A DNA stretch of 36,606 bases from Candidatus Peribacteraceae bacterium (GTDB lineage Bacteria > Patescibacteriota > Gracilibacteria > JAHISY01). The stretch's first letter is position 1. Each line of letters begins with the position of its first letter. Under the pieces are notes generated by a model that worked only from the letters and a program-made list of their open reading frames with translations, did not search any database and was not told the origin of the DNA. This document shows, piece by piece, positions 9,166-27,243 of the stretch. The stretch covers positions 1 to 36,606 of the forward strand of contig JAIPIJ010000004.1 in the NCBI GenBank assembly GCA_021734705.1, given 5' to 3'. Position numbers and translations under genes: made by a program.

Positions 9166-9183
9166 TGGTGCGCCCGGCAGGAT
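9166..9183 (-). pseudogene. tRNA-Arg 3'-end fragment
   Basis: Eighteen bases identical to the 3' end of the tRNA-Arg gene (its 9377-9394, including the CCA and the acceptor 3' strand), then divergence into the mini-hairpin AATCCGCC-TTT-GGCGGATT (9185-9203). It is a partial duplicate of the tRNA about 210 bp away. The rest of 9104-9310 holds short palindromes and no convincing gene. Confidence 0.7.
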
Positions 9184-9310: not shown

Positions 9311-9381
9311 CACCAAACAGAACCTTCTCCCACCACAAAGCGGCCCCTTTGGGGCTTCGTGGGAGCAGAACCTGTTTGGTG
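9311..9381. repeat. Nested inverted repeat at the 3' end of tRNA-Arg
   Basis: Three nested arms share one centre: CACCAAACAG/CTGTTTGGTG outside, CTCCCAC/GTGGGAG in the middle, and GCCCC-TTT-GGGGC inside. The outermost arm includes the ACCA of tRNA-Arg, so in the precursor the tRNA 3' end could be base-paired. The inner 13-mer recurs at 14218-14230. Confidence 0.7.
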
Positions 9382-9453
9382 CGCCCGGCAGGATTTGAAC
9401 CTACGACCCCCAGCTCCGCAAGCTGATGCTCTATCCAACTGAGCTACGGGCGC
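9377..9453 (-). tRNA. tRNA-Arg (anticodon GCG), CCA encoded
   Basis: Minus-strand cloverleaf: acceptor GCGCCCG/CGGGCGC, D-arm GCTC/GAGC, anticodon arm TCAGC-TTGCGGA-GCTGG with GCG at 34-36, and T-arm GTAGG-TTCAAAT-CCTGC. The discriminator is A and CCA is encoded at 9377-9379. Most bacteria read CGN codons with an ACG (inosine) anticodon; an unmodified GCG reading CGC/CGU is less common. Partial copies of this gene lie on both sides. Confidence 0.95.
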
Positions 9454-9480: not shown

Positions 9481-9547
9481 CTATCCAGCTGCTTGTCCGC
9501 CGTAGTCCCGAGCGAAGTCGAGGGGCGAAGGTGGAAGCTACGGGCGC
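9481..9547 (-). pseudogene. tRNA-Arg 5'-half fragment split by an insert
   Basis: The plus-strand pieces CTATCCAGCTG (9481-9491) and AAGCTACGGGCGC (9535-9547) match contiguous parts of tRNA-Arg. They are separated here by about 43 bp that contain GTCCGCCGTAG and the CCCGAGCGAAGTCGAGGG-type palindrome. It looks like a decayed tRNA copy invaded by a small dispersed palindrome. Confidence 0.65.
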
Positions 9548-16928: not shown

Positions 16929-17005
16929 GCGGATGTAGCTCAGTTGGCTAGAGCGCCACCTTGCCAAGGTGGAGGTCGCCGGTTCGAACCCGGTCATCCG
17001 CTCCA
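16929..17005 (+). tRNA. tRNA-Gly (anticodon GCC), CCA encoded
   Basis: Plus-strand cloverleaf: acceptor GCGGATG/CATCCGC, D-arm GCTC/GAGC, anticodon arm CCACC-TTGCCAA-GGTGG with GCC at 34-36, and T-arm GCCGG-TTCGAAC-CCGGT. The discriminator is T and CCA is encoded at 17003-17005. Its last 14 bases (GGTCATCCGCTCCA) recur at 17101-17114 and 25331-25344 as the ends of a repeated block, the pattern left by integration at a tRNA 3' end. Confidence 0.95.
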
Positions 17006-17028
17006 TTATCCGGAGTTCCAACAGTCAC

Positions 17029-17115
17029 ACCAGTTTTTGAATATTAGAAAATTTACCCGGCCTGCCCTCCGAAGCCTGAATGAAATGAAGGCGAAGGACG
17101 GGTCATCCGCTCCAC
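17029..17115. repeat. 87-bp direct repeat, copy 1, ending in tRNA-Gly 3' sequence
   Basis: Identical over 87 bp to 25259-25345. The 23 bp to its left are related between the copies but diverged. It ends with GGTCATCCGCTCCA, the 3' end of the tRNA-Gly gene next to it, so a 109-bp unit is flanked on both sides by that 14-mer. Likely an att-like or small mobile element; no recombinase gene is present. Confidence 0.9.
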
Positions 17116-17132
17116 CCCGCCACAGCGTTGTT

Positions 17133-17161
17133 CCCTGAGTCCGCCGTAGCGGACCGAAGGG
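17133..17161. repeat. Small dispersed palindrome (CCCTGAG...CGAAGGG family)
   Basis: CCCTGAG and CGAAGGG frame an inner hairpin GTCCGC-CGTA-GCGGAC. The same outer ends occur inside hom at 35554-35572. The remaining sequence up to 17229 shows only a tRNA-3'-end-like scrap (GAACCCGGCGCAATCC). Confidence 0.55.
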
Positions 17162-17229
17162 CTAATGGCTTTCCCGTGAAATTGATGGTCGGTGAGAACT
17201 AGCACGAACCCGGCGCAATCCACCCCATT

Positions 17230-18669
17230 TTACTGTTTAATAACAATCTCTCTGCCTTCTCCCATCGCCATCACTTCAGGATAATACATCTCAAGAATTT
17301 TTGACGGCAAAGCCTCGTAGATTCCCTCGATGCGTGCCAGAATAACATAATCAATCTCGTGTGTACCTGGAGTGAGACGATCGATAAAGAAACGGGCAGA
17401 ATCAAAACGGGATTCGCGATGAGAGACCACCGGACGACACCAGCCATAGCACTCATCAGAACTAATATCTACAAATTTTTCCAAAGTTCGATCAACATTA
17501 TCAAAATCAAAATTTACAATCTCCGTACCGGAAACTATGGGATCCTCCACCACCACCTGACGATGAGTAGAGTTGGAGACGATCTTTAGGCGAACGAGAT
17601 AATTTTTACCAACCTCCAACTCATCTAGCGGATGCTCAAATTCAACATCGTTCAACCCAAAAATCTCCCGCTCAATCCAAAAACCATGAGATATCGGCGC
17701 TAAATCTTTCGCTGCAAAAATCTCATGCAATTCAACATCAGCATAAAAACTCTTATCATTCGGTGAGCTTAAAGAGAACTGGTAGTTCTCATCTCGCTCC
17801 AGCGTAAAGTTTTCCTCTCTTTGATCAAGCGGATTTTGCAAAACGTCAGAAAAGTCTAGATCAGCTGAACTAATCACAAACTCAGCCGGATCATCCTCAC
17901 CCGGCAAATCTTCGTCGTAATCACCCAAAGCCATCAAGACGCGCAGCGCGGTATTACCTGAAATTCGTGATTTAGTATCAGCCAGATAACGGGCAATCTT
18001 CGGATGCAGATTGTCGCGAATATCATTCGCGATCCAGTGCTGAAATAAAATTGCAGTCAGACGCTCATTTTGCGAGTAAAAACTACGAAGGTCGGCCTCC
18101 TCTTCCCAGAAAACATAACGATCCCGGATATTCACCAAGCGATCAAGATCTTCCTCAAAGTTTTTGATAGATTTTCGAACTCCTGGCGAAAGCTGGGATT
18201 TTTTGAAAAAACCAGTCGCTCGTAAAAACCAGGCTTTTGCCTCTACTGAACGTGCTCTAGTCAGGAAAAAATCAAAATCTGAAGCTGCCAATATGCCACC
18301 ATCTCGCGCCAGCACAAAAACTCCATGCTGTCGCGTTGCGTCATCAAGGCAGAGCCAAGTTTCTTGTGGGTCACACTGATCACGCACCTCCTTGTTTAAC
18401 CAATTCCGAGCCTTAATTAAAGAAGCTTTAGAAAAACTAACTTCTTGCCACTGTGGCGCAAATTCCAGTACATTCGCTGTCAACCAGGCATTTGGTTTTG
18501 TATCATACATTTTCCAAGTATTCCAAAAGTGGAATCCGCCATTGTCATCTTGAGCGTCAATAATATATTTCAGATTTGCCTCCAAATCTGTCTGACTTGG
18601 CGGAATCGTCTCACGACCAACTTTTTCTAGTAAATTATTTTGCAAAATTAGACTAGTCCAATAACTCAA
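17230..18669 (-). CDS. Alpha-2-macroglobulin, C-terminal part after an in-frame TGA
   Basis: This 479-residue reading continues in the same frame from the alpha-2-macroglobulin N-terminal part; one TGA (18670-18672) separates them. It starts inside the thioester domain. TGA is followed at once by TTG AGT TAT, and residues such as ANLKYIIDAQDDNGGFHFW and AWLTANVLEFA are typical of the alpha/alpha toroid. The receptor-binding-like C-terminal beta domains follow (VGKNYLVRLKIVSNSTHRQVVVEDPIVSGTE; FDSARFFIDRLTPGTHEIDYVILARIEGIYEALPSKILEMYYPE). The TTG just after the stop could allow restart, but no ribosome site is seen. Either the gene is broken by a recent nonsense mutation, the TGA is read through, or the base is wrong in the assembly. 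No other frame damage is visible. Confidence 0.8.
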   Translation of the reverse strand: MSYWTSLILQNNLLEKVGRETIPPSQTDLEANLKYIIDAQDDNGGFHFWNTWKMYDTKPNAWLTANVLEFAPQWQEVSFSKASLIKARNWLNKEVRDQCDPQETWLCLDDATRQHGVFVLARDGGILAASDFDFFLTRARSVEAKAWFLRATGFFKKSQLSPGVRKSIKNFEEDLDRLVNIRDRYVFWEEEADLRSFYSQNERLTAILFQHWIANDIRDNLHPKIARYLADTKSRISGNTALRVLMALGDYDEDLPGEDDPAEFVISSADLDFSDVLQNPLDQREENFTLERDENYQFSLSSPNDKSFYADVELHEIFAAKDLAPISHGFWIEREIFGLNDVEFEHPLDELEVGKNYLVRLKIVSNSTHRQVVVEDPIVSGTEIVNFDFDNVDRTLEKFVDISSDECYGWCRPVVSHRESRFDSARFFIDRLTPGTHEIDYVILARIEGIYEALPSKILEMYYPEVMAMGEGREIVIKQ

Positions 18670-21600
18670 TCACTGTTCCGTGCAGCCGTAATTCATTTCA
18701 CGCGCCTCATTTACAAACTTCTGCAGACGATCCAACAAAGTACCAAACACTTTGAAAGTCAGGACAGATTCCAGGGCTCGCTCGTCAGACTTCACAGCCA
18801 AAGACTCCGGATCCTCGATACGGAAAAATTCTGCTGCAGTCGTCGATATTGTCGGCGGCATAATCCTGCGCTGAATCTCAACAGCATCGCGTAAGCCTGA
18901 TTCTGCTGCCTCAATTTCAAATTTCAAAGTAGTGTCTTTGCCCTCCAACGGCCAAGTAAATTTGTCACTTCGAGCAATTTCGACTGGGAAAAATATGCGT
19001 ATTTCATCCTCAACCGAAACTGTCTTCTCATATTCCTGTTTAACAAAATCCTCTGATAAAGTTAGTTTCACCTGAACTTTTTCTGATTTTGGTGAACCTA
19101 TATTGCGACGAATAAGTAAACCAACTTCACTCTCGTCTCCAAAACGGAAAATATTTGGCATTATCGGTGCGATCAAGAGTGGCAAACTAGTACTAAACTC
19201 ACCTTCTGTTTCGCCAAAAGCATTGTCATTCGTACTACCAATCACCCAAATGTGCCAAGTGGTGAGATTATCCGGCAACTTAAATTCAGCAACTGCTTCA
19301 CCATTTTGATCAGTCCGAATGGTGGCAATCCACTCTGCTGTATCGCGAAATTCACCACGTGGCTTCACGTCATCACCCTTACCACCACCACCGAAAGCAC
19401 TATCCATCACTGCTTTGATTTCTTCAACTTTTTCATAAATATCCTCGAGATCAGCCCGAGAAATGAAGTTTGCCAGCGTGTGTGAAGTATAAACTCCCAG
19501 CGGCAATTCTTTAAGAAATTTTTGAAATAAAGTCCCGATCTGATCACGCGAGCGCAGAGCCAGCAAGGTCTGATCGACAACAGCAACCGTCAGTTCAGCG
19601 GAAACCGGCTGACCGTCTTTCGCTGTTTTTAAAAACAACTTAACTGTATCTTGCGGTTGGTAGTCGTTTTTTTCCGGTTGCACAGAAATATCTAGCTCGT
19701 GATTCGGATCGTAAATCGGTATATTGATCGCTCCAAATTTCACCTTCGGAGAACCTTTCTCATCCCTACCTTCCAACACAATTGAGACAATCACATTTGG
19801 CGCCATCCAAGATTCGACCGGAAAGGAAACTGTCTGATCCGCAATATCCGGCGTCAGTGTTTCCAAAACTTTACCGCGCTCAAGCGTCACATGCGCCCGA
19901 TCAATTTCCCACTCGGTATGCGGAAAAAGCACAGTCGCCATCTCACCAATCTGGTATTCATCTTTCTCGACGAAAGGAACAAAAGTTTTATTTTCTGGGT
20001 TCTGCTGCATGGTAAATTCATCGCGCCGACTCGTCCAAATGTAAAAATTCTCTTCGGCTACAGCCGAACGTTTTTTAGGGTCATAAGAAGTCACGCGAAG
20101 AATATATTCTCCCGAATCCTCCGGACGCAGAAAACTACTAGAAAACTGACCACGCTCGTCTGAGCTGATATCAATCTTCCTAATCACTTCCTCAACCGCA
20201 TGCCACTCAGAGCTGTAGTCGCCGACAGCATCTTTACGATCATTACGCACCCATTTTTTACGAATTAGCTCTGCTTCAAGGCTCTTTTTCAGAGCATTGC
20301 CAGACAAATCCTCCAGCGTACCCGAAAACTCAATTTCGCTCTCGTTCTGACCAAAGAAATAAGGTAGGCGCCTCAATTCAACCTGCTCAGTAGAAACAAA
20401 GAAAGGAATCGACACTGTCGTGCTGGAAGAATCTCCCTGAGCTGCTTCTACCGTTAAATCCAGATTAAGTAGATCCCAGTCAATGTTTTCTTCATCCAGC
20501 TCAAAGTCGAGATCAACCGGAATAATAAACTCGCCATCCTTATTTAAAACACCCGAACCATTTAGAATCACCCGATCCTGCTTGTCAGGAGATCCCCACC
20601 ACCACTGTATGGGTTTGTAACCGAAAAGCGAGACTGTATAGTCAAAAGACTTACCTGCCAAAGCACCACCGAAAGCATATTCAGAGGAAATCGTAGCCTC
20701 ACACTCATCCTGCCAAATCGCCTGCCCACAATTCCAGCTGCCATCAACCAAAAAATCCGGCTTGCGGTATTCACCGACATAAAAAATACTTTCCGCTCTG
20801 TTGCGATAATTCTCTCCATATTGTGGAAAAGTAATTTCGATATTATATTCACCAAAAACTAAATCTTCGGGAATATCCCAATAGCCGTCCAAAGAACCAC
20901 CTACAATTTGCATGTTGGTTTGAAAAACACTCTCGTGTCGCGAATCAAAAATCTCTAAATTACAACTAAATGTTTCTTTTGGATCAATTGTCTTGAGTGG
21001 AAAATCTTTTTTAAAAAAATTCGTTTCCCGGAAAATTGACTTGAAATAAATTCGATCACCCGGCTGAAACAGAGGTCTGTCGGTAAAAACCACGCCACGC
21101 ACATCAGTCTCGTATTCGTATTGATTTACATTGACCGGCAAGTCCCCATAAAGGAAACCATCCTGGAAACTACGTGAACCAATTCCGATCTTTTTTTCGG
21201 CGGTCACTGCTACTCCCCAGAAATTGTCCACTGTCGTAAATTCGGAAACATATTTCTGCAATGGTCCAAAATTAAATAATTGCCCGTCACGACCCTCCCA
21301 GGAGCTGGTAATAACTTGAATACCGTCCGGAACAATTTTCACCTTCTCACCTGGAAAACTCTGTACCAAAATCTGCACCGTTTCGTCTGCCGCCGACTTC
21401 TGCTCAACCAGAAAATCCACTACAGAGAAATTTATCAAGTACGTATCCGGAGCATAGTTATTTTTGTCATCATAAGAAAGCTTAAGTTTAAAAAATCCAG
21501 CGTAATCAGTGCCCGTGAAAAAACCCGGGAAAATACGCTCCAAGTCCAACTCCTCGATTCTCTGACGTAGATTGGAAAATTCCCAGTCAAGGCTAGCTGT

Positions 21601-22791
21601 CGCTGATTTGTATTTAGGGTACAGCCGAGTAATTGTCAGTGTGACCGGATCTATATCTCCCGAGTGTTTAACAAAAAATTTAGGCAGCTCTCCATTTTTA
21701 AATACCTTATGCGAATAAGGGAAGAAGAAAGATTCCAATCTGTTCGAAAAAAATGATTTGAAGGTGATCAGCTTATCCGCACCAAGCTGACGTCCAAATT
21801 GATCTTCAATCTCGGCCGAAACATTGAATTCATAGCCCTGTCCAGCCTGCCAACGACCACCCGGCGGGTCGAAATAAAAGTCGCTACGAGTGTCATCCTC
21901 GGCGATTTTTTCCAGTTTATCATCGATATAGGCCTCCCAAAGCTCTGCATCAATGGGTTCCAGGGTGATTTTTTTTAGAAAATCATGAGCATTCACTTGA
22001 TAGGAAAATTCTAAACGTAAAGAGCTAAAAACATCACTCGGCTCATCGATATTGATTATTTGAAATTTTTCTATCGTCGAAAAACCCTGTTTTTGATCTA
22101 CTAATGTGGGTAAATCACCCTCTTTGCCTACAGCACCTTTTGGCAAAGTTAAAGTAAAGCTCGCCTGCTCATCCCACTCAGTTTTTGGAATAAATTCAAT
22201 TATTGACTCATTGGTTTCTTTTATCATCTTTTCATTTTCCCAGCGCTCAACTTCCCCATAAGCAATATCAAAATCTTTATCCGGATCAAAACTAATTTTA
22301 TTGGCCTCAGACAAATCAATCGGCTGGTTCAAAAAAATAGTCAGTGGGGTTTGGCCTCCCAAGTTTTTTGAGTGAATATCTTCAATTTCCACACGTGGAG
22401 TATTAAAGGCATAATTAATTCCTAACTCCGGTATGTCAAATTCATAATGTGTCGAAAATTTCCAGTCTTCGCTCGGCTCAAACAAAATCCCTGTCGTGCC
22501 TAGAAGCTGCCAACTTCCTTCAATAGACGGCATAATTTCAATGTTTTTCTCTAAAAATTTTTGAGCGCTCTCTGGATTTTGCAAAGAGAAAACTGGACTA
22601 TCCCAAATGAAAGTCACTGGCGTACGACCAGCAATATCCTTTGCCTCATTCTTAGGAGAATAAAAAACTGATGCAGCTTGTTCTTTTTCAGGATTTAAAA
22701 AATCCTCTCCTTCATCTAAATCGGTCTTGCAGGCTATTAGAGTTAAAAGACACAAACCTATCAGAAACAAAAATTTGAATTTTTTGTTCAT
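18670..22791 (-). CDS. Alpha-2-macroglobulin-like lipoprotein, N-terminal part through the thioester motif
   Basis: Bacterial alpha-2-macroglobulins are envelope protease traps. The 1373-residue part begins with a lipoprotein signal (hydrophobic run ending LIAC, Cys21). It then runs through many beta-sandwich MG domains, with the conserved ELTVAVVDQTLLAL and a following FRDTAEWIATIRTDQNGEA / LPDNLTTWHIWVIGST block, and stops right after NYGCTEQ, the CxEQ thioester motif. The usual family continues for several hundred residues, and here the continuation lies in the next 1440 bp in the same frame, separated by one TGA. The full product would be about 1853 residues, somewhat longer than E. coli YfhM. 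pbpC is upstream on the same strand, the partner gene also in E. coli. The segment is visibly more AT-rich than lysS or recJ and lies inside the repeat-bounded block. Confidence 0.9.
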   Translation of the reverse strand: MNKKFKFLFLIGLCLLTLIACKTDLDEGEDFLNPEKEQAASVFYSPKNEAKDIAGRTPVTFIWDSPVFSLQNPESAQKFLEKNIEIMPSIEGSWQLLGTTGILFEPSEDWKFSTHYEFDIPELGINYAFNTPRVEIEDIHSKNLGGQTPLTIFLNQPIDLSEANKISFDPDKDFDIAYGEVERWENEKMIKETNESIIEFIPKTEWDEQASFTLTLPKGAVGKEGDLPTLVDQKQGFSTIEKFQIINIDEPSDVFSSLRLEFSYQVNAHDFLKKITLEPIDAELWEAYIDDKLEKIAEDDTRSDFYFDPPGGRWQAGQGYEFNVSAEIEDQFGRQLGADKLITFKSFFSNRLESFFFPYSHKVFKNGELPKFFVKHSGDIDPVTLTITRLYPKYKSATASLDWEFSNLRQRIEELDLERIFPGFFTGTDYAGFFKLKLSYDDKNNYAPDTYLINFSVVDFLVEQKSAADETVQILVQSFPGEKVKIVPDGIQVITSSWEGRDGQLFNFGPLQKYVSEFTTVDNFWGVAVTAEKKIGIGSRSFQDGFLYGDLPVNVNQYEYETDVRGVVFTDRPLFQPGDRIYFKSIFRETNFFKKDFPLKTIDPKETFSCNLEIFDSRHESVFQTNMQIVGGSLDGYWDIPEDLVFGEYNIEITFPQYGENYRNRAESIFYVGEYRKPDFLVDGSWNCGQAIWQDECEATISSEYAFGGALAGKSFDYTVSLFGYKPIQWWWGSPDKQDRVILNGSGVLNKDGEFIIPVDLDFELDEENIDWDLLNLDLTVEAAQGDSSSTTVSIPFFVSTEQVELRRLPYFFGQNESEIEFSGTLEDLSGNALKKSLEAELIRKKWVRNDRKDAVGDYSSEWHAVEEVIRKIDISSDERGQFSSSFLRPEDSGEYILRVTSYDPKKRSAVAEENFYIWTSRRDEFTMQQNPENKTFVPFVEKDEYQIGEMATVLFPHTEWEIDRAHVTLERGKVLETLTPDIADQTVSFPVESWMAPNVIVSIVLEGRDEKGSPKVKFGAINIPIYDPNHELDISVQPEKNDYQPQDTVKLFLKTAKDGQPVSAELTVAVVDQTLLALRSRDQIGTLFQKFLKELPLGVYTSHTLANFISRADLEDIYEKVEEIKAVMDSAFGGGGKGDDVKPRGEFRDTAEWIATIRTDQNGEAVAEFKLPDNLTTWHIWVIGSTNDNAFGETEGEFSTSLPLLIAPIMPNIFRFGDESEVGLLIRRNIGSPKSEKVQVKLTLSEDFVKQEYEKTVSVEDEIRIFFPVEIARSDKFTWPLEGKDTTLKFEIEAAESGLRDAVEIQRRIMPPTISTTAAEFFRIEDPESLAVKSDERALESVLTFKVFGTLLDRLQKFVNEAREMNYGCTEQ

Positions 22792-22950
22792 AAAAATAGA
22801 ATTAAATTTAGCTCATTTTTGCTGTGTTTTATTTAAAAATCAAAATTACCGAAATAAAAGATACTCCACGTTTTAATGGATTAATCCTCTTCTGATGCCA
22901 ACAACCATAAAGTAGGCAGCACAAATAAGCCTTAAGCCTCCTTCTCAAAG

Positions 22951-25074
22951 TCATTCCACAAGAATAGTAATCTTCGCCCGCTCATCACCAGACAACGCCA
23001 TGATTTCATGCTCTCCAAGTGTAACATCTTCAATAATATCCCCGCTCTCAACTCCATCAAACAAAATCCTCACCTCGCCAATCCCACCCCGAGTCTTCAC
23101 AGAAATCTTGGAATCCGGATGAAAACGATCACCTTCATTCGGAAAAGCAATCGCAAACTCCGGTCTTTGTGTTGTTTGCAAATCTGTCAGCTCCTCTGGC
23201 AAAAGAAACTCCACAATTTTTTCCGAACAATTTGGCATATTTTCAAAAGGACGACGGCAAATCTGCACTTCATCACGCTCAGATGAAAATTTAAAATCCG
23301 GTGGTGAAAATGGATGTAACTCACGCATAATCGCCCGCCAAAAAGGACCAGCACCCTCATTCCCAGAGCTCATGTGCATCGGCGTCCCATCAGCATTACC
23401 CACCCAAACACCCACCGTATACTCCGAAGTGCTGCCAACAGTATAATTATCTCGAAAATCTTGGCTCGTCCCTGTCTTCACTGCCACATCGAATTCCATA
23501 TCTAGCGAGCTAGAACGCGAAAAAACGCGCCAGCGTGCTTCACGATCAGATAAGGCATGTAAAATCCATTCCGCTGTTTCGAGAGAAATTTTACGCTCTG
23601 GCTCCGGAAAAAAATCCTCTGCCTGACAAATTACTGCATCATTTTCGTCACGAACTTCACTGAAAAACCTTGGACTACTTTGAATTCCCTTTTGCTGATA
23701 CATGGAAAAAGCCGAGGCTAAATCCAGCAATCTTGACTCTCCTGAACCTAACACTAGCGCCAAACCAACATCATCAGGAGATTTTTTGAAATGAAAGCCT
23801 AGATATTCTAGAAAGACGAAAAAGCGATCGATACCAATCCGATCCAGCAGAGTCACCGCTGAAATATTGTAAGAACCAGTCAGGGCCTCTCGAAAACGCA
23901 CGTGGCCATATTCCATGTTGTCGCGGTAATTCTGCGGCGCATAGGAACCATCCTCGGTTAGAAAAGATTTCCGTTCATCTATAATTTCATCTGCCGGAGA
24001 AAGACCATTCTCCAAGGCAAGAGTAAAAAGAAAAGGCTTGAGCGTCGAGCCCATCTCACGAGAAGCAGTCGTTAGATTGACATTGCCAGCGATACTCGTG
24101 TCAAAAAAATCTGTTGAACCCAGCATCGTCAAAATCTCATTTTGCTCATCCAGCACTACCGCTGAAGCGTTAGAAATATTTTTATCACTTTTTTTATCCA
24201 AATTATCCCGCGCCAGCTTCAGAACTTTTTGATGTAAACTTTTATCAACAGTCGTCTGAACTCTAATTTCTGCAGCCTGACTCACGTCACAGACAGTAGA
24301 ATTCTCTAGCTGATCTTTCACAAAAAGCACGAAGTGTGGTGCATGAATTTCAATCACTTCGTCTGGTTTGAGTGCAATCTCTTGCTGCTGCCAAAAATCC
24401 CGCTTTTCGGTCGAAATTAAACCCTGCTGCTGCCAAATGTTCAGAACCAAATCTTTACGTTCTTCAGCTTTTTCAGCATTAGCAAGCGGATTCCATGTGT
24501 CCGGTCGTGGCAGGATACCGACCAAAACCGCGCGCTCGCCCAATGTCAAAGCCTCAATATCCTTGGAAAAATAGCGCCGTGCTGCACCATCGAATCCGAC
24601 CGCGCCATTGCCGAAGTAGCTCTGCTTCGCGTAGAGCTGAAAAATCTCCCCCTTGCTCAAATGTGCATCTAGTCGCAGAGCCAGAAGTGCCTGGCGAAGC
24701 TTATACCACAAATCATGACGCTCATTTTCTAGAAAGTTTTGGCGAACCACCTGCATTGTAATCGTCGAAGCACCTGAAACAATATCTCGCTCGCGAACGT
24801 TCTGAATCGCCGCCCGCAGAACCGAGCTAAGGTCCACACCAAGATGTGACCGAAAATCTTGATCCTCGACTGCACTCACCCAGGATTCCAGACTAGAAAA
24901 ATCAACCCCATGAGCCTCAGCAAAAGCCTTCTCGGAAAAAAGCAGCTCCCCTTCCAGATCATAAAAAACCCACTTCTGCTCACTGACAATCTGAAGTGGT
25001 AGAGATAGCCAAACTAAAAATAGGATTAAGATAATCAGCGGAAAAATCCAAAAAAATCTTTCTTTATGCCTCAT
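22951..25074 (-). CDS. pbpC: Penicillin-binding protein 1C (bifunctional transglycosylase/transpeptidase)
   Basis: Peptidoglycan glycan polymerisation and cross-linking. The 707-residue protein has an N-terminal membrane anchor (residues 8-27). The GT51 domain has catalytic Glu70 in EDQDFRSHLGVD and GASTITMQ (101-108). The transpeptidase domain has the SxxK motif STLK (343-346), SYN (401-403) and KTGTS (533-537). A C-terminal PBP1C-type beta domain follows (FPNEGDRFHPDSKISVKT...GEHEIMALSGD). All active-site motifs are intact. A TGTTAAAAT box stands 7 nt before the ATG. The alpha-2-macroglobulin gene follows after 159 bp, as in the E. coli pbpC-yfhM pair. It is inside the repeat-bounded block. 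Confidence 0.95.
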   Translation of the reverse strand: MRHKERFFWIFPLIILILFLVWLSLPLQIVSEQKWVFYDLEGELLFSEKAFAEAHGVDFSSLESWVSAVEDQDFRSHLGVDLSSVLRAAIQNVRERDIVSGASTITMQVVRQNFLENERHDLWYKLRQALLALRLDAHLSKGEIFQLYAKQSYFGNGAVGFDGAARRYFSKDIEALTLGERAVLVGILPRPDTWNPLANAEKAEERKDLVLNIWQQQGLISTEKRDFWQQQEIALKPDEVIEIHAPHFVLFVKDQLENSTVCDVSQAAEIRVQTTVDKSLHQKVLKLARDNLDKKSDKNISNASAVVLDEQNEILTMLGSTDFFDTSIAGNVNLTTASREMGSTLKPFLFTLALENGLSPADEIIDERKSFLTEDGSYAPQNYRDNMEYGHVRFREALTGSYNISAVTLLDRIGIDRFFVFLEYLGFHFKKSPDDVGLALVLGSGESRLLDLASAFSMYQQKGIQSSPRFFSEVRDENDAVICQAEDFFPEPERKISLETAEWILHALSDREARWRVFSRSSSLDMEFDVAVKTGTSQDFRDNYTVGSTSEYTVGVWVGNADGTPMHMSSGNEGAGPFWRAIMRELHPFSPPDFKFSSERDEVQICRRPFENMPNCSEKIVEFLLPEELTDLQTTQRPEFAIAFPNEGDRFHPDSKISVKTRGGIGEVRILFDGVESGDIIEDVTLGEHEIMALSGDERAKITILVE

Positions 25075-25081
25075 CGAATGG

Positions 25082-25090
25082 ATTTTAACA
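25082..25090 (-). promoter_or_regulatory. Predicted extended -10 promoter of pbpC
   Basis: TGTTAAAAT on the minus strand, 7 nt before the ATG; leaderless arrangement. Confidence 0.6.
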
Positions 25091-25258
25091 TTTGATATTA
25101 TTTAGTATTAGAACTCCGTTTGAATTAATAAAATATCACTTACGACGGCTAATCAAGAATGTTGGATTAGCTTGAACCTAAATTACTATTCCTTTTAGAA
25201 AATAATTTCTAACAACCTTTAAGGTTTCGTTCCATTCTTCGGAGCTCCGAACGGCTGT

Positions 25259-25345
25259 ACCAGTTTTTGAATATTAGAAAATTTACCCGGCCTGCCCTCC
25301 GAAGCCTGAATGAAATGAAGGCGAAGGACGGGTCATCCGCTCCAC
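25259..25345. repeat. 87-bp direct repeat, copy 2, ending in tRNA-Gly 3' sequence
   Basis: Identical to 17029-17115 but with no tRNA gene beside it. It is preceded by a perfect 14-bp palindrome TTCGGAGCTCCGAA (25239-25252). With copy 1 it bounds about 8.1 kb that hold alpha-2-macroglobulin and pbpC. The rest of 25075-25364 shows the pbpC promoter and nothing else recognisable. Confidence 0.9.
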
Positions 25346-25364: not shown

Positions 25365-27149
25365 TCACCCTTTCGGCGTATAGCTAAAGATCCTCTCAAC
25401 GATGCCATCGTCAGCTTTTTGCGCTCCGTCAATCATATTAAAGAGCTCTTTTCGGGAAGCTTCTTTGCTTTGGGCTGAGTCTCCCGGCAACTCTCCTAAG
25501 TTGGCTGCAATACGTTGCTTGAGTAGAGTCGCAGCGTAGAGGAAGCTGATCGGTAAATAGTTATGGGTAAATTCCAAGCGATGGTCCGAACGCTTCACGG
25601 TCTGTAGATATTCCTGCAGCTCGTGCGGCGGCCATAGACTAATGCCGATCAATCGCGTCGTTTCCCACGAGTCAGTTTGGAATTTGGACTGCTCTTCTTC
25701 GCGAATCTCAGCTTGGGAACCGTGAACCTCAATCGCCTCAGTGCTTTGCGCCGCACCAAGCGTATCGACTCCGGCTGGCGTTTCTGCGCCGCGAACTTTA
25801 CGCGCAGTTTTTTGTGCTGCAGTCTGTTTTAGTTCTTCCTCGGCGCTTAGCTCTAAATTTTCCCTCGCGCGCATGTCTTGCCCTTGCACTAGTATTTTTT
25901 GCGTTTCGTTTGCAGTTGAAGTTTGGCCGAAAGCCATCGTCAGAGCCGCAATCTGGATGAACATCCTCCGAATGAACTCATTTTTACGCTGTGCCTGTAA
26001 AAGATTTTCTCGAACCGAACTCGTTGGTTCATCCGCCTCACTCGCAGCTTTCAACTGCATCCGTGAGTGGATTTCTAATTCAAGCGAAATCGGCTTTGGT
26101 TTGACTTTCGCCTCTAACTTAAAGCGCGGATTCAGCCCCAACAGAAATTTTCGGTCTTTTCTTAAAACCGCCGCAGGCTTTTTCTCCGCAAGATGTTGCG
26201 AAATTTCCAGAAGTTGAGTCGAAATTTTTTCTTCGATCTCGCTCCGTACTCTACGAAATTTATCAGCCCACGTTTTAAAAATTTCTAGCTTCTGAATCTG
26301 TTTTGGTGGATTACGAAGCTTGGCTTCTTCTCCCTTGAACGTAGCCCAAGCATCCGAAGGAGGTAGTCCCTTGGCCAAATCAAGCTTTGACTGCAACTCT
26401 GCAGAGAAATCTTTTTCTTGCACACCTAAAAAATCATCCACCCCTTCATCCGCACGAATTTGATCTGCAATGCGCAGTAAAATATTACGCCGCTCTTCAA
26501 AAGTAGATCGCGCAAAAACATTTTTAGAAAAGAGTTTTTTGAAACGCAGCGCTAAGCGCGGATATTTCTCTCGTAGCTCCAAAAAATCCGCAATCTGCTT
26601 TTTGCGTTTTTCAGTCTCAAGCTTAATCTGGTCCATACGCGCAGTCATCTTATTTTTCGTCGCTGTAAGTTCGCTCGCCTGGATCTTGGCCGGATTAGAT
26701 TGGCTCTCGTAGAGCGGTTCGACAAATTCATGCAACCAGAAAATCCTTTCGGTAACGACTTCACTAGGTAAAGTCTCATTTTCGAAGCTGGTCGGCTGGC
26801 CACCCCAAAGCGGAAAATCTTCAAATTTGCCAGAGATAAACCCGTCGCGTTCATAAAGGAAACTAGTCCGCATTCCCAAGACAAATTCTTCGTAGCTCTT
26901 CAGGCTCTCCTCCAAATCATGCAGGCGCTCAAGCGGATTATTTTTATCCAGAACTAACGCAGTTTCTCGGCGGAACTTATCTTTAGCTTTCGGATTAATC
27001 TGGGCGGCTTCAATCCGAGCCGAAAGTTCGGTCCTCTTACGCTCCGCTTCCTGCAACCAATTTGTTCCGTCTTCATCAGTAAGTGCGAAACGCGGGCAGG
27101 ATTGCTTCGAATCAAAATTATTGGCTGGACTCTGAAAAAAAGTGAACAT
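25365..27149 (-). CDS. Unknown protein, charged and coiled-coil rich
   Basis: I do not recognise this 594-residue protein. It is rich in Lys, Glu, Arg and Ala, with long predicted helices and coiled coils (about residues 30-95, 155-205, 280-330). It has one short hydrophobic segment (FIQIAALTMAF, about residue 397) that looks too short for a sure membrane helix, then a low-complexity Glu/Ala/Gln stretch (415-480). A more globular end follows (SLWPPHELQEYLQTVKRSDHRLEFTHNYLPISFLYAATLLKQ). The ATG at 27147-27149 is preferred to an upstream TTG. It lies just outside the repeat-bounded block, and its stop is 20 bp from copy 2. A structural or cell-size-specific role is possible, but nothing shows it. 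Confidence 0.7.
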   Translation of the reverse strand: MFTFFQSPANNFDSKQSCPRFALTDEDGTNWLQEAERKRTELSARIEAAQINPKAKDKFRRETALVLDKNNPLERLHDLEESLKSYEEFVLGMRTSFLYERDGFISGKFEDFPLWGGQPTSFENETLPSEVVTERIFWLHEFVEPLYESQSNPAKIQASELTATKNKMTARMDQIKLETEKRKKQIADFLELREKYPRLALRFKKLFSKNVFARSTFEERRNILLRIADQIRADEGVDDFLGVQEKDFSAELQSKLDLAKGLPPSDAWATFKGEEAKLRNPPKQIQKLEIFKTWADKFRRVRSEIEEKISTQLLEISQHLAEKKPAAVLRKDRKFLLGLNPRFKLEAKVKPKPISLELEIHSRMQLKAASEADEPTSSVRENLLQAQRKNEFIRRMFIQIAALTMAFGQTSTANETQKILVQGQDMRARENLELSAEEELKQTAAQKTARKVRGAETPAGVDTLGAAQSTEAIEVHGSQAEIREEEQSKFQTDSWETTRLIGISLWPPHELQEYLQTVKRSDHRLEFTHNYLPISFLYAATLLKQRIAANLGELPGDSAQSKEASRKELFNMIDGAQKADDGIVERIFSYTPKG

Positions 27150-27243
27150 CTCAAAAAAAACGTTTGTCGGCAAATTGCTCAGAGATTAGCACCCTCTTTT
27201 CATTTGGACAAAAAAATATAAAATCTGACGTAATCAAGTCGCG

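Follow-up and report, generated by a model that had tools for sequence, protein, structure and literature searches.

An alpha-2-macroglobulin/pbpC block between two tRNA-derived repeat units behind tRNA-Gly, and apparent docking of mobile units at tRNA genes in Patescibacteria

Islands moved by a tyrosine or serine recombinase insert at the 3' ends of tRNA genes, where they leave a short duplication of that end at both borders, carry cargo and are missing from relatives. Tycheposons are tRNA-linked cargo elements that vary between close relatives, depend on a tyrosine recombinase and also occur in cargo-only forms, and in fungal mitochondria (e.g. at atp6 of Allomyces) an endonuclease gene that enters a host gene at its end brings a replacement end with it and leaves the old end behind. 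For the Candidate Phyla Radiation (CPR), GIY-YIG insertions in rRNA genes, outside introns, have been reported with no mention of tRNA (PMC11270868). The present study concerns a 36606-nt window (the whole stretch of DNA analysed, JAIPIJ010000004.1, contig C7 of genome G000) from a Candidatus Peribacteraceae bacterium, a tiny uncultured Patescibacteria-type organism in which a pair of cell-envelope genes, for an alpha-2-macroglobulin (A2M) and a pbpC-like peptidoglycan synthase, has been inserted right behind a tRNA-Gly gene. The whole analysis is of sequence from metagenome-assembled genomes (MAGs), that of the window comprising 854 kb in 51 contigs at 85% completeness. How Patescibacteria, with few conventional mobile elements, gain genes is an open question, and a class of tRNA-linked units would offer them a concrete route. 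The tRNA genes of these bacteria apparently act as docking sites for a seemingly undescribed kind of mobile unit, and we regard it as an evenly balanced proposition that such units, either encoding a GIY-YIG nuclease or resembling miniature inverted-repeat transposable elements (MITEs), target tRNA genes and that the A2M/pbpC block came to sit between two of them as foreign cargo.

The block is flanked by two 87-bp direct repeats, which are 100% identical and lie exactly where a first-pass annotation, made from the DNA letters, had placed them (Table 1); a chance origin is excluded. Both repeats end, as that annotation also stated, in the 3' end of tRNA-Gly: the string GGTCATCCGCTCCA occurs three times in all, once where the tRNA gene ends and once where each 87-mer ends. 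Its statement that copy 1 touches the tRNA gene does not hold for the 87-mer, which begins 23 bp past the tRNA, although the wider homology does reach it. The homology of the two copies continues leftward beyond the 87-mer as far as the tRNA end, which makes each repeat the right-hand part of a unit of approximately 110 bp; between the two units the right 86–87 bp are identical, whereas the left 23 bp or so are only approximately 70% identical. Likewise, the shared tRNA piece had been taken to be 14 nt long; the match to the 3' end stands, but the real piece is 18 nt and is split by a hairpin, reading ACCCGG, hairpin and TCATCCGCTCCA in each unit (17055–17060 and 17103–17114 in unit 1). The genome-wide search for further 87-mers that had been proposed yielded only these two copies in the 854-kb MAG. 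A scattered repeat family was rejected on the same count, and 99 genomes gave only short partial matches elsewhere. No known RNA family in Rfam matched the units, and the DNA folding of the 87-mer was not above that of shuffled sequences (z −0.48), so we make no claim of an attC-like structure.

The block is of unusual composition, as had been suspected, with a GC content of 42.9% that lies below all of the 137 equal-length windows sampled from the genome (43.1–51.4%, median 46.6%). The relatives that were to be searched for a tRNA-Gly gene without the block were found in two congeners. In G002 a SPOUT methyltransferase gene and tRNA-Gly are followed, after a few base pairs, by a homologue of the 602-amino-acid gene of the native flank, whereas in G004 the tRNA-Gly gene is followed by three units of 46–47 bp, each ending in TCATCCGCTCCA, and then by a decarboxylase of the common flank; neither genome has the block at this site. 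This comparison identifies the 8.1-kb block as an insertion at the tRNA-Gly 3' end that is particular to this lineage, in agreement with the proposal that the pair arrived as a cassette, and the copy of the tRNA-Gly 3' end that adjoins the native flank in unit 2 is, judging from G002, probably the displaced original end. In G005, from a sister genus, TTACCCGCTCCA is both the end of tRNA-Gly and the copy that comes after it, so the copies follow their own tRNA. The possibility that an 8.2-kb circle with one unit was wrongly joined to the chromosome at the 87-mer during assembly is suggested by the nature of the record, a MAG in which an 87-bp repeat is a possible mis-join point; however, the native neighbours of tRNA-Gly stand on both sides of the block, as an insertion requires, and the repeat is shorter than usual sequencing reads, which makes such an artefact very improbable.

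As to its contents, the block does hold only A2M and pbpC, as first described, but the A2M gene is not intact. An in-frame TGA on the minus strand (18670–18672) directly follows the thioester motif GCTEQ, and a further 479 codons, including the bMG10 domain, continue in the same frame; relatives have residues such as L, T or V at this position, and the stop may reflect a pseudogene, recoding or a sequencing error. The nearest relative of the pair is one in the same order in G032 (UBA4473), from another family of the class, with 43% amino acid identity, and a broad A2M search gave close relatives only in this same genome. The congeners G001 and G004 have an A2M only 28% identical and a pbpC in a different order, at another site. 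An origin of the block as phage cargo was also considered and rejected, the A2M having no relative in IMG/VR.

Table 1. Positions of the tRNA-Gly and tRNA-Arg features in the window
Feature	Position	Strand	Remarks
tRNA-Gly(gcc), intact	16929..17005	+	ARAGORN, Rfam RF00005
Unit 1, 109 bp, MITE-like	17006..17114	+	no open reading frame (ORF); left hairpin-like end, AT-rich middle, hairpin within 18-nt tRNA-Gly 3' piece
87-bp repeat, copy 1	17029..17115	+	one of two genome copies
tRNA-Gly 3' end copy in unit 1	17103..17114	+	TCATCCGCTCCA
Cargo block, 8.1 kb	17115..25234		AT-rich, absent at tRNA-Gly of G002 and G004
A2M, C-terminal part	17230..18669	-	bMG10; frame shared with N-terminal part
A2M, N-terminal 1373 amino acids	18670..22791	-	up to thioester motif GCTEQ; ended by TGA at 18670-18672
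pbpC-like bifunctional peptidoglycan synthase	22951..25074	-	
Unit 2, 110 bp	25235..25344	+	no ORF; homologous to unit 1 over full length
87-bp repeat, copy 2	25259..25345	+	identical to copy 1
tRNA-Gly 3' end copy in unit 2	25333..25344	+	adjoins native flank
602-amino-acid gene of native flank	25365..27173	-	directly behind tRNA-Gly in G002
tRNA-Arg(gcg)	9377..9453	-	second case in the window; pieces upstream and downstream
tRNA-Arg 5' end copy	9536..9547	-	GCGCCCGTAGCT; upstream, hairpin after
tRNA-Arg 3' end copy	9166..9183	-	ATCCTGCCGGGCGCACCA; ~200 bp downstream, hairpin before

Pieces of this kind are found genome-wide. Exact 12-mers of each tRNA's own ends were sought within 1 kb of it, with annotated tRNAs masked, for 99 distinct tRNA genes, a sample from stretches around most tRNAs of G000 and G004 and many of G005 that is not complete. 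A same-strand copy of the 5' end lay upstream of 16 genes and one of the 3' end downstream of 20, while the six other combinations together gave 1 and a control with swapped tRNAs approximately 0.1 per class. Pieces accompanied 32/99 tRNA genes over the three genomes, and 16/32 in the genome of the window. A fourth genome of the family (G003, 32 tRNA genes) had three of the 5' upstream and two of the 3' downstream kind and no others, and genomes from other families of the class had the 3' kind at 4/31 (G007) and 4/29 (G041) tRNA genes or the 5' kind at 1/31 (G030) and 3/37 (G057), with 0 in other orientations. This strict direction bears on the idea that the pieces are decaying tandem duplications of tRNA genes and that the nuclease genes described below merely sit in neutral DNA. 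Some pieces are near-complete tRNAs, as would fit (tRNA-Ile in L111 and tRNA-Val in L113), and tRNA-linked tandem repeats, the RtT repeats, are present at E. coli lysT, but duplication and decay should produce all four kinds of pieces, and on the wrong sides we observed 0 (5' ends downstream) and 1 (3' ends upstream) against the 16 and 20 above. Nor would it be expected that the nuclease subclades track tRNA isotype across families, and we hold this explanation to be very unlikely.

Of the 19 5' pieces, 18 extend no further than tRNA position ~60, and most of the 22 3' pieces begin at position 54 or later, which places the border of the two kinds in the T-arm. The anticodon arm is replaced in many 5' pieces by a TCCCG...CGGGA hairpin, and the T-arm is replaced in several 3' pieces. 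Such substitution, which would keep a piece folded, is what might be expected if the pieces acted as RNA, pairing with tRNA strands in the precursor and regulating maturation, or serving as decoys, with the GIY-YIG proteins as possible tRNA-cutting toxins that have RNA antidotes; the 3' units of G007, in which the tRNA end is copied in both inverted and direct orientation, point the same way. However, the pieces differ between congeners at the same tRNA, most tRNA genes have none, and several 3' units sit behind a terminator-like hairpin with a T run, and we give a role as RNA little credence.

The units mostly exist without cargo. At orthologous loci of G000 and G004, the distance from tRNA to conserved flank was 504 compared with 4 bp behind tRNA-Val(tac), 313 compared with 85 bp for tRNA-Thr(ggt) and 193 compared with 21 bp for tRNA-Pro(tgg) on the left. 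These length differences amount to presence/absence polymorphism at the target site, the units being gained and lost between congeners.

Several units, and several stretches between pieces, contain an ORF of approximately 80–110 codons with a GIY-YIG domain, in one of two layouts: 5' piece, GIY-YIG gene and intact tRNA, or intact tRNA, GIY-YIG gene and 3' piece. At four loci (L162, L135, L139 and L173) a single intact tRNA stands between an upstream 5' piece and a downstream 3' piece. In a tree of 55 GIY-YIG proteins, which was built from 91 columns and supports coarse statements only, one clade of 20 (SH-aLRT, the Shimodaira–Hasegawa-like approximate likelihood ratio test, 95) was tRNA-adjacent in 20/20 cases; this sample, drawn from the best hits, gives a biased view of how many of all small GIY-YIG genes are tRNA-linked. 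Subclades within it match the tRNA isotype, namely Gly(tcc) and Gln, each in two families, Pro, Asn, Leu and Ala, and the number of isotype changes on the clade was 10, the minimum, compared with 12–15 in 300 shuffles. The catalytic Y, YxG, R, H and E are kept throughout the clade. One tRNA-Gln gene has a 117-bp unit without an ORF and a 411-bp GIY-YIG unit in tandem with both ends in common, and these shared ends suggest that the smaller is a MITE and the larger its autonomous partner. GIY-YIG genes in conserved synteny near tRNA-Met (L136, L147 and L185) fall outside the tRNA clade and were not counted as units.

These observations can be accommodated if a unit inserts within a tRNA gene, supplies a replacement end and pushes the old end outward. 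A truncated copy of the adjacent tRNA forms the beginning or the end of every unit, and the tRNA gene is thereby left intact. Autonomous units would encode a small GIY-YIG endonuclease specific to one tRNA isotype, whose cutting of the tRNA gene may start the insertion and thus make the units mobile, and short units such as the two at tRNA-Gly would be their non-autonomous, MITE-like derivatives, the 87-bp repeats being the right ends of two copies of one such unit behind the tRNA gene. The A2M/pbpC block would then most likely have come in by way of the units, through recombination at them or when incoming DNA was used to mend a break in the tRNA gene, or else through a recombinase acting in trans. 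A unit class present at a third to a half of one family's tRNA genes, with an isotype-specific nuclease clade, would explain tRNA-linked cargo that has no integrase. As in homing elements, the units genome-wide show a nuclease with its catalytic residues, target specificity across hosts and presence/absence differences.

Four points weigh against this reading. The two tRNA-Gly units (109–110 bp, without an ORF) hold no endonuclease gene, in which they differ from homing elements, and none lies at tRNA-Gly(gcc) of the sampled genomes. An intact tRNA stands beside the GIY-YIG gene, and its escape from cutting is left unexplained. A hairpin in place of the anticodon or T-arm, as in many pieces, is not explained by simple insertion. 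Finally, at least one comparable block, described below, was probably moved conventionally.

A simpler account of the block is that the tandem tRNA-Gly units pre-existed and were passive, and that the cargo entered by natural transformation and homologous recombination through the 87-bp identity or the flanks. The identity of the right 87 bp and the sharply lower identity to the left suggest exchange or conversion inside the unit, as would be expected on this account, and pili and competence genes are reported to be prevalent in Patescibacteria (PMC12455944). It explains neither the original joining of cargo to unit ends nor the other large blocks between a tRNA and its 3' copy, and we consider it a credible contender that falls somewhat short of probable.

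Two such blocks were found besides that at tRNA-Gly, so tRNA-linked cargo is recurrent here. In G004 a 5.15-kb block (L082, G004:C5, 4575–9736) lies between tRNA-Lys and a 23-nt copy of the tRNA-Lys 3' end and contains a DpnII-type restriction-modification pair, an AIPR/AbiU protein and a SOUL protein; it is absent in G003 and in the sampled stretch of G005. In G005 a 10-kb block, which ends in a 3' piece of tRNA-Ile, contains a type III restriction system, a trypsin-like protein and a large serine recombinase, the gene for which (L101, G005:C6, 8395–10068, plus strand) overlaps the tRNA-Ile 3' end by 22 bp. No counterpart was present beside tRNA-Ile in the sampled stretches of G003 and G004. 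This is the block that was probably moved conventionally, whereas the tRNA-Lys and tRNA-Gly blocks contain no recombinase.

The first-pass annotation had noted that no integrase lies inside the tRNA-Gly block, which its gene content bears out, no integrase or recombinase being encoded beside pbpC and A2M, and had proposed a recombinase from elsewhere acting on the 87-mers as attachment (att) sites. The block does resemble a tRNA-targeted integrative island in having a copy of the tRNA 3' end at both borders, in its absence from relatives and in its low GC, and the recombinase-bearing tRNA-Ile island of G005 looks like such an element. It differs in having no recombinase of its own, in its borders, which are ~110-bp units found genome-wide without cargo, and in the 5' pieces upstream of tRNAs, which att sites do not produce. 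In four genomes of the family, that of the window among them, PF00589 is represented by exactly one protein each, a number too small and a protein too conserved to account for units at half of the tRNA genes, and an integrase as sole explanation was therefore rejected. The tyrosine recombinase/att version of the proposal finds no support, the 87-mers belonging to a class mostly without cargo, while a recombinase supplied in trans may have acted, in view of the G005 island with its own serine enzyme. The L101 serine recombinase had no tblastn match in the other sampled stretches, which cover ~38% of G000, where serine recombinases were not searched genome-wide. Overall, a conventional island, inserted into the 3' end of tRNA-Gly by a serine or tyrosine recombinase in trans with the 87-mers as attL and attR, seems to us rather unlikely, and an integrase island is not proven by tRNA 3'-end repeats alone.

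The proposed units share features with each of the other described systems, and of all known systems the E. coli RtT repeats and the tRNA-targeted islands come closest. Like tycheposons, they involve cargo beside tRNA genes, variation between close relatives and cargo-only forms, but the dedicated enzyme of the units is a GIY-YIG nuclease instead of a tyrosine recombinase. The RtT repeats of E. coli (lysT/tyrT, RF00391) likewise stand in tandem behind a tRNA and finish with a copy of its 3' end. In six regions of E. coli K-12 the 12-mer test was positive only downstream of tRNA-Lys genes (lysT cluster and lysV), and as a positive control Rfam assigned the sequence downstream in the lysT stretch to RtT repeats; the repeats of the 3' kind thus have a known relative. 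In contrast with the units described here, the E. coli regions sampled showed no GIY-YIG gene and no upstream 5' pieces, and RF00391 had no match in the window or in eight unit-bearing loci. The GIY-YIG insertions in CPR rRNA genes likewise concern Patescibacteria and structural RNA genes and are not introns, but are confined to rRNA (PMC11270868). With the Allomyces atp6 insertions the units would have in common that a replacement end is brought and the old end left behind; they differ in that bacterial tRNA genes rather than mitochondrial protein genes are affected, in having both 5' and 3' versions and in their hairpin-substituted arms. We found no description of GIY-YIG genes at tRNA genes in CPR bacteria in a literature search, outside which most subscription papers fell. 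A broader proposition, to which we lean with less than even confidence, is that Patescibacteria carry recombinase-free mobile units, isotype-specific GIY-YIG elements together with MITE-like, hairpin-substituted tRNA pieces, at both ends of tRNA genes, and that arrays of them admit cargo for defence and the envelope, of which A2M/pbpC and restriction systems are examples.

Some further arrangements were observed at individual tRNA genes. The GIY-YIG frames of G057 hold in-frame TGA codons, consistent with a TGA-recoding lineage of Patescibacteria, and the tRNA genes of this genome often have no encoded CCA. Four loci of G007 (L204, L228, L235 and L238) have 3' units in which the T-arm of the tRNA recurs in inverted form ~60 nt past the gene, so that the layout, A / anti-A / A', resembles an attenuator. 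Behind tRNA-Trp of the window's genome (L159, G000:C6, 1337–1445) lies a run of short tandem repeats that all close with the final 9 nt of that tRNA, GGCCTGCCA; a GIY-YIG ORF comes next. In G005 (L146, G005:C6, 1734–1897) an intact tRNA-Met is preceded by a tRNA-Met 5' piece in two tandem copies of 82 bp, with a hairpin in place of the anticodon arm.

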